The notes under the pieces are model-generated. The model had not been told where the DNA came from and did not search any database. It worked only from the letters and a program-made list of their open reading frames with translations. The translations under genes and the position numbers were made by a program. Below are positions 52,207 to 64,000 of a stretch of DNA of 64,000 nt, in pieces (within the stretch, counting starts at the first letter, position 1; each line of letters opens with the position of its first letter). This stretch comes from Streptomyces sp. SM11. GTDB taxonomy: Bacteria; Actinomycetota; Actinomycetes; Streptomycetales; Streptomycetaceae. The DNA is taken from positions 1 to 64,000 of the forward strand of contig NZ_NEUE01000260.1 of assembly GCF_002910905.1 (NCBI RefSeq), given 5' to 3'.

Positions 52207-52399
52207 GGGGCACTCGCCTCCCTCCGAAGCGGTGACCAGACTATCGCGCTTGCGCGCAAGGAATTACCCGCCTCCCGATACCGTATGGGCAAAATCCCCG
52301 CATATAAAGAGCGCAGACACCAGATTCCTCCTTGCGTGCGAGCACGCAACATGCCAATGTGCGATCTCGCAACATCTGGTGCGGGGAGAAGGGATCGCC
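52207..52399. promoter_or_regulatory. divergent low-GC control region before the tail module
   Basis: 193 bases between the XRE gene and the plus-strand gene at 52400. It is lower in GC than its surroundings and contains a partial inverted pair of TTGCGCGCAA (at about 52251-52260, a perfect 10-base palindrome) and TTGCGTGCGAGCACGCAA (at about 52332-52349, CTTGCGTGC...GCACGCAA). Such paired TTGCG-NNN-CGCAA sites are plausible operators for the XRE protein; the match is by eye. Confidence 0.55.
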
Positions 52400-53251
52400 A
52401 TGACCACACCGAACACAGCTACACCGGCCACATCCACACCGAACACGCGGGAGCCCGCCGGAACGGGTGCCACCGCCCGCCGGCCCGGCCCTGACGGCAA
52501 CGGCAACGGCAACGGCAACGGCAACGGCAACGGCACGATCGCGGACGCGATGCTCTGGATCGAGCTGCTGCTGCGCCAGTTCCCGGAACTGCTCGTCGAG
52601 CTCGCCCCCTCCTACCGCTCACCCTCGGCCGCTCCGACGGTCCCGTCCGGCTCCCCCTCCGCCCCGGCCGGCCCGACCCGCGCCGAGCGCGAGGAGGCCC
52701 TGCGCGCCGAGCAGGCCCACGGCCTCACCCCTCCCGGCTCCCGCACCTCCCCCCTGCGGCTTCACATCTCCGACGCCGTACGCGACATCACCGACGGCGT
52801 GATCGAGCTCGACGAGGCCGTACACGACCGGCTCCACCTGCCCCGCCCCCGCCGCGAGCAGGTCACCGGGCGGCTGCTGCGCGTCGCGGGGCTCCTCGAC
52901 CGGGCCGCCGGTGACGACGTACTGCTCGAACACATCCGGGACGAGGCCCGCCGCATGGCCCGCCGCTGCACCCGGGCCCTGGGCGGCGCCGAACCGGTGG
53001 TGCGGGTGAGCGGGCGCTGCCCGTGGTGCGACTCGGTCTCTCTGCGGGCCTTTCCCGCCCGCCGGGCGGTGCTCTGCGTCAACCCGGCCTGCCGCTGCGC
53101 GGACCGGGCCTGCGACTGCCGTACGGATCCGGCGCACCGGCACGCGTGGAGCGAGGGCGCGTGGGCGCGGCTCGCGGCGGAGTCCGGCGGCGACGTCGTC
53201 GAGCTGACCGCCTCGGCCGAGGACACCGCGCGGCGGGAGGGTACGCGATGA
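52400..53251 (+). CDS. hypothetical protein with Gly-Asn repeat and C-terminal Cys-rich motif
   Basis: A 283-residue protein. A Thr/Pro-rich start leads to a run of six Gly-Asn pairs, then IADAMLWIELLLRQFPELLV, a helical core (LRLHISDAVRDITDGVIELD, EQVTGRLLRVAGLLDRAAG) and a C-terminal CPWCDSVSLRAFPARRAVLC through CRCADRACDC, a Cys-rich possible zinc site. RBS GGAGAAGGG. It ends by ATGA overlap with the next gene. It is the first plus-strand gene of the tail region and may be a regulator. Confidence 0.7.
   Translation: MTTPNTATPATSTPNTREPAGTGATARRPGPDGNGNGNGNGNGNGTIADAMLWIELLLRQFPELLVELAPSYRSPSAAPTVPSGSPSAPAGPTRAEREEALRAEQAHGLTPPGSRTSPLRLHISDAVRDITDGVIELDEAVHDRLHLPRPRREQVTGRLLRVAGLLDRAAGDDVLLEHIRDEARRMARRCTRALGGAEPVVRVSGRCPWCDSVSLRAFPARRAVLCVNPACRCADRACDCRTDPAHRHAWSEGAWARLAAESGGDVVELTASAEDTARREGTR
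52496..52531 (+). repeat. in-frame (GGCAAC)6 microsatellite
   Basis: Six perfect copies of GGCAAC code for (Gly-Asn)6 in the gene at 52400. Slippage changes the number of Gly-Asn pairs without breaking the frame. Confidence 0.95.
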
Positions 53252-53388
53252 CGGCCGCGACGCTGCTGACGGGCGAACTCGCCGCGCACGAGGCGGGCGT
53301 GAAGCCCGCGACGATCCGCAAGTGCTCGCGGACGCGGTCGTGGACGAGACCCCGCCGCCGGGCTTCGACGGCACCCAGGAGGCGGTGA
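53248..53388 (+). pseudogene. truncated helix-turn-helix gene
   Basis: Starts inside the stop of the preceding gene (ATGA at 53248). The product begins MTAATLLTGELAAHEAGVKP, an HTH start like MerR-type or terminase-small-subunit-like HTH, and after ATIRK it runs into out-of-frame sequence of the tail completion gene (residues then read CSRTRSWTRPRRR). The rest of the HTH gene has been deleted, with the junction near 53320. Confidence 0.6.
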
Positions 53389-53664
53389 TCGTCTCCCTGC
53401 GCGGCGGCGCGTGGATCGACGACCTCCACCTCGACCAGCCGCTCGTCGAGCTGGAGGCCTACGGGCCGGACAAGGCGACGGCGCACCGCCTGGCGAAACG
53501 CCGCCCGCGCCGAGCTGCTGTCGGCGGCCGGCCGGACGTACGGAACGAACCTCGTGATCACCGATGTGGTCGAGTCCGACGGTCCGCGCTGGCTGCCGGA
53601 GTACCTCCATCCGGCGGCCAACCGCTACGTCTGCGTCCTGCGCGTGTCGCTGCGCATCGGCTGA
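53322..53664 (+). pseudogene. phage tail completion/terminator-like protein, frameshifted and 5'-truncated
   Basis: Readable as LADAVVDETPPPGFDGTQEA, GGAWIDDLHLDQPLVELEAY, GPDKATAHRLA in one frame and ARAELLSAAGRTYGTNLVIT, DGPRWLPEYLHPAANRYVCV, LRVSLRIG in the next. Removing one A from AAA at 53496-53498 joins them (RLANAARAEL). Size and place, directly before the tube gene, fit a siphovirus tail terminator. The start is lost at the deletion junction near 53320. Confidence 0.7.
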
Positions 53665-53819
53665 ACCGCCGGCATCCGCCCGGCGACCATCCACGCACCG
53701 CCCGTACCGACCCGGCGCCTCCGAGCGCCCCCACAGACAGGGCCCCGTCATCGGCGGGGCCTTCGCCGTACCCGCGGCAGGCACCACCATCCACGGAAAA
53801 CCATCTGAAGGAGCCATCC

Positions 53820-61825: not shown

Positions 61826-61866
61826 GCACCCACCCGCCCCACGACTGAAGCGAGGTGACGGCCCGC

Positions 61867-62811
61867 ATGGCCGAGACCACAACCACACATCCCCACGAGA
61901 CCGCACCCGGCTCACTGATCACCCGCGACGGGCAGATCCAGTGGGCCGGACTGCTGATGGGCCCCGGAACGCCGTACGAGATCGACCGCACCGGCATCAC
62001 CGGCTGGGACGACCTCCCGGTCCTGGACACCGGTGACATCTCCCGCCCCGATCAGCACGGCGCCTGGCCCGGCGCCCGCTGGGCCCAGCCCCGCATCGTC
62101 GGGGCCTCCCTCTGGCTGCTGCCCCGGAAGGCCGAACAGGCCCTCGGCGTCCTCTCCGCCTTCCGCGCCGCCACCGGAGCGGAAGGCGGGGAGCGCTGGC
62201 TGGCGGTGCGGCTGCACGGCCAGACGCTCGCCGTCCGGGCACGGGTGAGCCGCCGGGTCGTACCGCAGGACCGGTCCTTCGTGGTGCACGGCACGTCCAG
62301 GACGAGCATCCAGTGGACCGCGACCGACCCGCGCCGCTTCGGAGCGGTCCTGCGGGAGGCCCGGGCGTCCCTGCCCGTGCAGGAACCGGGCCTGGACTGG
62401 CCCGCCGAACCGGGTCCGGCCGGCATGGGGCTCCAGTGGCCGCTGGAGTGGGGCGAGACCGGCACCGCGGGCACCTGCACCGCGGTCAACGAGGGGGGAG
62501 CGGCGGCCCTCCCGGTCATCGAGTTCCGTGGGCTGCTCCGGCGCCCCACGCTGACCCGGCTCGGTGACGGCCGACAGCTCCAGTACGACATCGTGCTCGG
62601 CCCCCAGGACGTCCTGACCGTCGACACCGAGGCGGGCACCGTCCTGCTCAACGGCACCGCGTCCCGGCTCTACACCGCGGCCCCAACCTCCGCCCCCGAG
62701 CAGCTGTTCCACCTGCCGCCCGGCGCCACGGAGCTGGCCTTCCGGGCCGGGGACGCCACGCCCGACCCGCGGGCCTCGGTCACCCTGCGCTGGCGCGACG
62801 CCCACTGGTGA
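61867..62811 (+). CDS. distal tail (Dit)-like / siphovirus tail component protein
   Basis: A 314-residue protein directly after the tape measure. Motifs: SLITRDGQIQWAGLLMGPGT, YEIDRTGITGWDDLPVLDTG, RRVVPQDRSFVVHGTSRTSI, QWTATDPRRFG, ending ASVTLRWRDAHW. The D-R-x-V-W-TATDPRR block is a hallmark of phage distal tail proteins of the siphovirus type, which form the hexameric hub at the tail tip. ATG at 61867 follows GAGGTGACGGCCCGC; a GTG 12 bases upstream is an alternative. Intact. Confidence 0.82.
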   Translation: MAETTTTHPHETAPGSLITRDGQIQWAGLLMGPGTPYEIDRTGITGWDDLPVLDTGDISRPDQHGAWPGARWAQPRIVGASLWLLPRKAEQALGVLSAFRAATGAEGGERWLAVRLHGQTLAVRARVSRRVVPQDRSFVVHGTSRTSIQWTATDPRRFGAVLREARASLPVQEPGLDWPAEPGPAGMGLQWPLEWGETGTAGTCTAVNEGGAAALPVIEFRGLLRRPTLTRLGDGRQLQYDIVLGPQDVLTVDTEAGTVLLNGTASRLYTAAPTSAPEQLFHLPPGATELAFRAGDATPDPRASVTLRWRDAHW

Positions 62812-62858
62812 CCCTCCCGCGGCGCCCGACCACCACCACCCCATCTCAGGAGGACAAC

Positions 62859-64000
62859 ATGCCTGTACGCAGTGCCTGGCTCATCAACCGCACCGAGACC
62901 GAGAGCGGCCAGACCCGCGCCGACACCCGGCTCGCCCCGCTCGGCACCATGACCCCGAACGGAGCGCTGACCGGAGCCGGCGGCGTGATGCCCGGTTCCG
63001 CCGACGGCGAGCACCTGATGTCCGGGCTCTACGTCTTCGGTGAGAGCGCCGGTATGAAGGTGACCGTCACCCCGGGCCGTGCGGTGATCCAGGGCCAGGG
63101 AGCGGCCGGGACCTACCCGGTCGTCCTCACCGACCACGCGACCCTCACCCTCGACGACGGGAACGCCTCCAACGACCGCATCGACCTCGTCGTGCTGCGC
63201 GTCCGCGACGCCCAGTTCGACGCCGGCGACCGCACCGAAGCCTCTCTGGAGGTCATCACCGGCGAGGCGAAGGCCCTCCCGAGCCGCCGCGGGTCCCGTC
63301 GGCGTCCCTCCGTCTCGCCCGGATCACGGTGCCCGCCGGAGCCTCCGTCGGCACGGGCGGCATCGTCTGGGAGGAAGCCGTCTACGACCTGCGCGTACCG
63401 ACCGTGGCGATCGGCGGCATCCTGCCCGAGTCCTGGAACCGCGACGTCGCCGGCGGCTACCCGGGGCAGTACCGCGACTCCTCCGCCGCCCTGCAGCGCT
63501 GGGACGGGACACGCTGGGCGAGCTACCCGCGGCAGACCGGCGGCATCGCCCCGCAGGACGCGCTGGCCGCAGGTGAGTACACCGGCCAGTACCGCGACGA
63601 GGCCGGACGGCTGGAGCGCTGGGACGGCACCGTCTGGCGCCCGGCCGTACCGTCCACCGCCTGGGCGAACCACACCGACGGCGGGTACTGCACCTCCACC
63701 TCCTGGGTGGAGGCGGTCAGCGACACCACCGGCCCCACGATCACCGCGACCTTCACCGTGCCGGTCACCGGCGCGGTCCTGGTCACCGTCGGCTTCATGG
63801 GGCACACCGGCGTCGACGGACAGTGGTCCCGCATGGGCGTCAACATCCGCAAGGACGGCGCCCTGGTCTTCGGAGCGAACGAGGTCCGCTCGGCGACGGT
63901 CGGGTCCAAGGCCATGACCTCGGTGTCCGCCACCTCCCACCTCACGGGACTGCAGCCCGGCGCGGTCTACACGGCGGTCTCCGCCTACACCACGTCGGCG
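62859..64000 (+). pseudogene. minor tail / fibre-like protein, frameshifted and cut by the window end
   Basis: MPVRSAWLINRTETESGQTR, DTRLAPLGTMTPNGALT, MKVTVTPGRAVIQGQGAAGT, NDRIDLVVLRVRDAQFDAGD, GEAKALP runs in one frame; PPRVPSASLRLARITVPAGA, VYDLRVPTVAIGGILPES follows in the next and stays open to 64000. One missing G near 63281 explains it. Two repeats (GGYPGQYRDSSAALQRWDGT and GEYTGQYRDEAGRLERWDGT) follow, then a beta-rich domain. It resembles phage receptor-binding or fibre subunits. AGGAGGA precedes the ATG. Confidence 0.74.

Follow-up and report, generated by a model that had tools for sequence, protein, structure and literature searches.

What is a set of phage tail genes doing beside the housekeeping gene rpsL of a Streptomyces chromosome, with no phage head in sight? 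The window analysed here, bases 1-64000 of a 107.9-kb contig (NZ_NEUE01000260.1) of Streptomyces sp. SM11, raises this question, as a siphophage-type tail module starts close to rpsL and runs past the window end; the examined region was extended to 84 kb. The answer is almost certainly a headless, domesticated and conserved tail locus, of which the window strain carries a broken copy. The best explanation of this copy, which we consider probable, is that it is the decayed form of a domesticated, headless, non-contractile tail with lysis genes and a weapon-type mechanism. Judged by their genes, these loci appear to form a so far undescribed family of antibacterial weapons built like tails.

The tail locus and its relatives

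The tail and lysis module lies on the plus strand and exactly fills the 16 kb that separate rpsL from rpoC. The preliminary description had read the order tail terminator, tail tube, chaperones, an island, tape measure, Dit-like and fibre-like protein, and profile matches bear it out (phrog_123, Phage_TTP_17, phrog_10551, phrog_3981, phrog_5577 and phrog_3398). Past position 64000 the order continues with hub, amidase endolysin, a holin-like protein and hyp86, a protein of 86 amino acids (aa), and then comes rpoC without any head genes. The module ends at 66602 and the 3' end of rpoC (66712) follows 110 bp further, as was foreseen when an insertion between rpsL and rpoC was proposed; neither of the two outcomes named there as refuting, head genes beyond 64000 or a far side lacking rpoC, came about. 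The 5' side of the tail genes holds an XRE gene, a Cys-rich regulator-like gene (zf286) and a truncated MerR-like gene. In agreement with the preliminary description, no relatives of terminase, portal, capsid or integrase were found anywhere in the extended 84 kb, nor did the Pfam models for portal, HK97 capsid and TerL ATPase match anything in the whole genome of the window strain. The idea that this is a whole prophage was rejected, since there are no head genes on either side. Nor was a sheath gene found among the annotated proteins of the window and of locus L009, for which no dedicated sheath model was run; this fits the earlier statement that the module differs from the contractile systems of Streptomyces.

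Intact headless versions of the module, which the preliminary description had suggested seeking, are found between rpsL and rpoC in related species. Scanning with the Dit protein, one genome per species, retrieved 55 loci, 54 in Streptomyces and one in Kitasatospora. At least 12 of the 13 core genes are present in 41 of the 55 loci, and most of those below this number run off contig ends. rpoC adjoins the locus in 39 of 55, lying within about 0.5 kb of hyp86 in 36 of those, and about ten retrieved copies are situated elsewhere, making the site common and not universal. Head or integrase genes were matched in none of the 54 Streptomyces loci in the DNA examined around each, and the three Pfam head models were empty genome-wide in 8 of 10 tail-bearing relatives. 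When Streptomyces genomes were sampled instead, tail tube and zf286 were both present (each at E <= 1e-34) in 24 of 150, with the module at rpsL-rpoC in 13 of these 24. The gap is mostly short among 138 genomes; it measures some 16 kb or more in 11, and ten of those hold the module. A tree built from six tail proteins has loci at the rpoC site in each of its two deep clades and shows four changes of location, and distances of the tail core and lysis genes correlate with those of rpoC (r 0.35-0.76). This pattern indicates an old locus that is mostly inherited vertically, with recombination inside it. Purifying selection is evident from NG86 dN/dS medians of 0.15-0.47 over 17 genes, the method being rough at this G+C content.

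The single Kitasatospora locus (L083, Kitasatospora sp. A2-31) is a genuine prophage in which MuF and capsid genes are present; its tail-tip and holin-like genes are 40-63% identical to those of the family, and it represents a possible donor type. In two further loci (L106 and L107, in genomes G114 and G119) the structural tail operon, flanked by the regulators and rpoC, is inverted en bloc and has its terminator gene beside rpoC, which suggests inversion or modular exchange at the site.

Intact relatives carry a complete non-contractile set of terminator, tube, G/GT, tape measure, Dit, hub and fibre, together with a lysis cassette of an Amidase_2 endolysin and a 75-aa protein that is a putative holin. 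The 3' end of chaperone G reads CTGGGGGAAG(G/A)CTGA in all nine loci printed, where the -1 frame runs on into GT; a putative programmed -1 frameshift site, GGGGGAAG(G/A)CTGA, is conserved at the chaperone stop in the same nine of nine. Programmed frameshifting between G and GT is usual in long tails. The tape measure is made up of two tandem paralogues, TMP1 and TMP2, of about 395 and 425 aa, which share 31% identity over 375 aa and whose genes overlap by 4 bp in 39 loci. The receptor-binding fibre of the intact copies (phrog_14726) is 34-38% identical to the tail fibres of TG1, Raleigh and phiBT1, and the predicted fold of its C-terminal domain resembles tip proteins of the Streptomyces phages BRock and FlowerPower, in a model whose mean confidence (pLDDT) is only 63, with much of the C-terminal domain at 75-93. 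A match between its stalk and the chain FtbO (E 1.5e-5) involves a repeat common in fibres and was not counted as a sign of kinship. Useful sequence relatives of tube, Dit and hub were not found among solved structures, and the tube protein found no close phage source in IMG/VR.

The window copy is a relic and not a working locus. A comparison locus, L029 from Streptomyces sp. rh34, shows 94-96% DNA identity over most tail genes. Missing from the window are 898 bp present in L029 and other intact copies, by which loss the MerR-like gene has been joined to the tail terminator; 574 bp between the two tape-measure genes of L029, with 22 bp common to both sides at the junction; and about 2.4 kb holding a 238-aa tail protein and the receptor-binding fibre. 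Direct translation places terminator, tube, fibre-like protein and hub each in two frames, and chaperone G is probably frameshifted as well. The tail gene set of the intact relatives is thus represented in the window with several genes broken and the receptor-binding fibre deleted: the tail genes as first read are present and ordered, with the broken state as a correction, and the tandem tape-measure paralogues of relatives and the fibre deletion had gone unnoticed. Open frames are kept for XRE, zf286, V (described below), Dit, endolysin, holin-like protein and hyp86. Sequencing error is an unlikely cause of the frameshifts, as rpoB, rpoC and rpsL are intact on the same contig and large deletions are present in addition.

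Decay at the rpoC site has run in parallel elsewhere. In genome G008 (L109, 2700-5400) the middle of the locus is deleted, while hyp86, the holin-like gene, a broken endolysin and tube, the terminator and xre are retained, and the relics in G011 (L105) and G083 (L100) consist of regulator genes and hyp86 only.

The variable genes V and I

The island between chaperones and tape measure, whose make-up the preliminary description had not recognised, consists of a gene that we call V and an array of genes like one that we call I, and both are part of the system. Unrelated foreign DNA at this position was considered and rejected because the island matches the I family and V. V is a mostly coiled-coil protein encoded on the plus strand between chaperone GT and tape measure in 55 of the 56 intact loci examined. 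It changes far faster than its surroundings: a full-length V match is absent in 58 of 119 locus pairs with TMP1 at least 80% identical, and among L051, L052 and L053 V is unrelated in all three comparisons despite 96-97% identity in TMP1 and 98-99% in Dit. At the same time, distant loci have V types in common (L033 and L051, L050 and L061, L060 and L063).

I is a small membrane protein with the motif V-x-YDP that occurs in most loci on the S. griseus side, usually on the minus strand. A hidden Markov model (HMM) of the family gave no match outside the chaperone-tape measure interval in the same loci, and no relative of the first I-like protein of the window was found elsewhere in the window genome. 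Among the I proteins scanned, DUF3592 rises above the cut-off in L061 only; the first I-like protein of the window stays below it (E 5e-4). The window island holds six to seven I-like units in a row on the minus strand, two of them intact, and then an open V; the second intact unit (number 4 in the table) is matched by the I-family HMM too, its sequence being in the training set. A 257-bp direct repeat in the array (56735-56991 and 58637-58892, 90% identical) shows that duplication has occurred within it.

Similarity in V goes with similarity in I over 29 loci (r 0.78). With TMP1 similarity removed the partial correlation is 0.77, a value reached in 0 of 2000 permutations, and it is 0.64 without L035 and L066; V and I themselves barely track TMP1 (r 0.23 and 0.21). 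Both are under purifying selection where they can be compared (0.13-0.76). Polymorphic effector-immunity pairs with orphan immunity arrays exist, and V and I resemble them in that a hypervariable gene is accompanied by a co-varying small membrane protein, with extra immunity-like copies in the window. They differ from such pairs in lying inside a non-contractile tail operon and in lacking a recognised toxin domain. That V is an effector and I its immunity protein would account for this pattern, and we give it a chance close to, and slightly under, one half.

Several observations weigh against this assignment. No known toxin domain was found in V, and no relatives of V in phage records, for which reason V could be an accessory of assembly or of the tape measure. 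As V and I are neighbours, their co-variation could reflect linkage inside one recombination cassette, which is the main alternative to a functional pair. Furthermore, the clade on the gardneri side has V without a recognisable I. These points lead to the strongest of the rival explanations, in which V is a variable N-terminal part of the tape measure or of its assembly and I an unrelated membrane gene in a recombination hotspot, so that there is no pair, even if the tail may still be a tailocin. The coiled-coil nature of V, its position directly before the tape measure, the lack of a known domain and the one clade without I all agree with it; on the other hand, changes in V are matched by changes in I irrespective of the tape measure, I is confined to the interval, and the window holds an I-like array. 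We regard this explanation as rather unlikely. In the gardneri-side interval (L014, L016, L019, L073 and relatives) proteins of 250-325 aa on the minus strand and of 70 aa on the plus strand stand in the place of I.

Proposed function and related systems

XRE has relatives among the annotated immunity repressors of SV1-group siphophages, the S. griseus copy being 36% identical to those of phages SoJo and Tubberson. A palindrome, TTGCGYGC-NN-GCRCGCAA, lies between xre and the divergent zf286, and the window copy of it is perfectly symmetrical. The looser form TTGCGY-N6-RCGCAA has 34 matches in 1.63 Mb of loci, all of them in tail/regulator loci and one per locus; 33 of the 34 are in the regulator region and one lies 188 bp upstream of the terminator. 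zf286 is lineage-specific with an invariant Cys-rich C-terminus, and neither a search of 50,697 phage records nor a fold search found a match for it. We take it as a candidate activator of the tail operon.

A working copy would then operate as follows. XRE, descended from a phage immunity repressor, would bind the palindrome and silence the operon led by zf286 and the MerR-like gene. On induction, tube, chaperones and the short tape measures would build tails with V packed in or at the lumen, and holin and amidase would lyse the producing compartment. The phiC31-like fibre could bind the surface of other Streptomyces, where V, the tape measure or both may act at the target membrane, and the membrane protein I would shield sister cells from their own V type. 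In the window strain, tail assembly and targeting are lost, and V, the regulators, the lysis genes and an expanded, partly decayed I array kept. The proposal of a tailocin-like locus or its relic beside rpsL is to this extent supported by rpoC, the headlessness and the intact relatives, with the window copy being the relic; its killing part remains a prediction from sequence. We think that an antibacterial function of the intact family is somewhat favoured. A fuller reading, in which a genus-wide non-contractile tailocin family would carry an exchangeable, membrane-acting lumen protein V and a cognate I, and strains like the window's would lose the weapon while keeping and expanding the immunity genes, is offered tentatively.

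Two further points weigh against this explanation. There is no LexA-type GAAC-N4-GTTC box between xre and zf286. Moreover, the genome-wide head search comprised three Pfam models, and the head search around the retrieved loci reached at most 10 kb per side.

Rather than act against competitors, the tail could have a self-directed or developmental role in Streptomyces. The contractile systems of this genus act inside the producer, in programmed death or a stress response, according to two reports (PMC10066040, PMC10286715), and a chromosomal, long-lived locus would suit such a role. However, an outward direction is suggested by the complete pair of holin and amidase and by a surface-binding fibre that resembles those of Streptomyces phages, and variation of fibre and V fits a contest between strains, making a self-directed role improbable. 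Still less probable is plain decay of a prophage, in which a siphophage inserted and then shed the genes for head, replication and integrase without any domestication. The truncated and frameshifted window copy and the phage-like repressor and several phage-like tail-tip genes are what such decay would leave, yet dozens of species keep the full headless set under purifying selection, at one site shared by the two deep clades, and decay by chance would not halt each time at one common boundary. The intact copies largely refute plain decay for the family, and it holds true, narrowly, only for the decay of the window copy itself. A gene transfer agent or a tail supply for a phage satellite, suggested by tail genes without a phage genome, is very improbable given that the locus has no packaging or capsid genes and that the three Pfam head models are empty in 8 of 10 other carriers.

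Functionally, the domesticated tail that we favour would be closest to the F-type tailocins. These are rare, with F-pyocin, monocin and rhizoviticin as the examples (PMC10811719), and their mode of action has been called largely unknown (PMC8910223). Like F-pyocin of Pseudomonas, monocin of Listeria and rhizoviticin of Allorhizobium vitis, the family combines a non-contractile tail with lysis genes and regulators and has no head. It is unlike them in its phiC31/SV1-like tail tip, actinobacterial tube and rpsL-rpoC site, its two tandem short tape measures and variable V-I cassette, and its XRE, zf286 and MerR genes with a palindrome of their own. With the contractile injection systems of Streptomyces (SLP, CIS-Sc), for which a tape-measure-like cargo, Sle1, has been described (PMC13277306), it shares a chromosomal cluster derived from a phage tail and conserved across the genus; those have a sheath and a contractile baseplate, whereas the tip of the family is siphophage-like and no sheath gene was found. 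The siphophages SV1, Attoomi, SoJo, TG1 and phiBT1 provide relatives of Dit, fibre, hub and repressor at 30-59% identity. Unlike the family, SV1 and Attoomi carry terminase, portal, capsid and integrase and a single tape measure of 805 or 1141 aa, and for the tube, V and zf286 of the family phage records offer weak relatives or none.

No description of the locus was found in the literature, which is weak evidence as most subscription papers and all preprints were outside the search, and no actinobacterial F-type tailocins turned up in the searches made. With few F-type tailocins known, a family of them conserved in Streptomyces, the main antibiotic-producing genus, would be an addition and would give the biology of this genus a second tail-derived machine beside the contractile systems. 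If the proposal is true, the family would represent F-type tailocins equipped with a polymorphic effector-immunity cassette, and the variable protein with its co-varying partner would give direct genetic access to the way flexible-tail tailocins kill and to the protection of their producers.

Features of the window copy and other inserts at the site

Table 1. Features between rpsL and rpoB on the contig of the window strain; positions above 64000 lie past the window end.
Feature	Position	Strand	Evidence and remarks
rpsL, housekeeping anchor	49899..50270	-	Pfam Ribosom_S12; rpsG, then rest of str operon beyond
p247 relative, unknown protein between rpsL and regulator	50731..51306	-	tblastn, 61% identity to L009 gene
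XRE/Cro-CI regulator, intact	51760..52206	-	89% to L009 xre; HTH_3 and phrog_3949 on L009 copy
Operator-like perfect palindrome TTGCGTGC-GA-GCACGCAA in divergent xre/zf286 intergenic region	52332..52349	.	TTGCGY-N6-RCGCAA motif scan
zf286, Cys-rich C-terminus, candidate activator	about 52397..53251	+	80-84% to intact copies
merR67 stub, MerR-like gene cut by 898-bp deletion	53248..53325	+	phrog_2474 on intact copy
Tail terminator, 5' end deleted and frameshifted	53325..53661	+	phrog_123; two frames
Tail tube protein, frameshifted near start	53820..54421	+	Phage_TTP_17, E 6e-52; two frames
Tail assembly chaperone G, frame probably lost near end, before putative programmed-frameshift site	54539..54823	+	phrog_10551
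Chaperone GT extension	54894..55220	+	82% to L009 chapGT; phrog_3656 on L009 copy
I-like membrane protein 1, intact, 137 aa	55236..55649	-	I-family HMM, E 6e-37 (in training set)
I-like gene 2, broken	56106..56450	-	49% over 77 aa to L058 I protein, several frames
I-like fragment 3	56749..56991	-	90% DNA identity to fragment 7
I-like membrane protein 4, intact, 131 aa	57073..57468	-	24% over 123 aa to L061 I
I-like fragment 5, N-terminal part	57670..57840	-	75% over 57 aa to L029 I
I-like fragment 6, C-terminal part	58168..58419	-	33% over 84 aa to L029 I
I-like fragment 7	58654..58905	-	I-family HMM, E 5e-11
V, hypervariable coiled-coil protein directly 5' of tape measure, open, 261 aa	59111..59896	+	about 30% to V of L033, L035, L051 and L080
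TMP1-TMP2 tape measure fusion	59942..61825	+	phrog_3981 and others; comparison with L029
Dit-like distal tail protein, intact	61855..62811	+	phrog_5577, E 4e-91; SPP1_Dit just below cut-off
Fibre-like protein (fib400 family), frameshifted	62859..64054 (past window end)	+	phrog_3398, E 8e-46; two frames
Hub/tail protein, frameshifted	64066-65167	+	phrog_1885
Amidase endolysin	ends 66093	+	phrog_880, Amidase_2
Holin-like protein, 75 aa (putative holin)	66104-66325	+	phrog_4316 (unknown function)
hyp86, 86 aa	66342-66602	+	position
rpoC	66712-70611	-	
rpoB	70709-74224	-	

The rpsL-rpoC gap serves as a general hotspot for insertions, with some 6-9 kb present in about 19 of the 138 genomes. Inserts in related genomes (L091-L096) are unrelated to the tail where they were inspected, that of L091 holding M48 peptidase-like, Crp-like and other genes, and the gap in L086 (G127) is occupied by an insert resembling a conjugative element.

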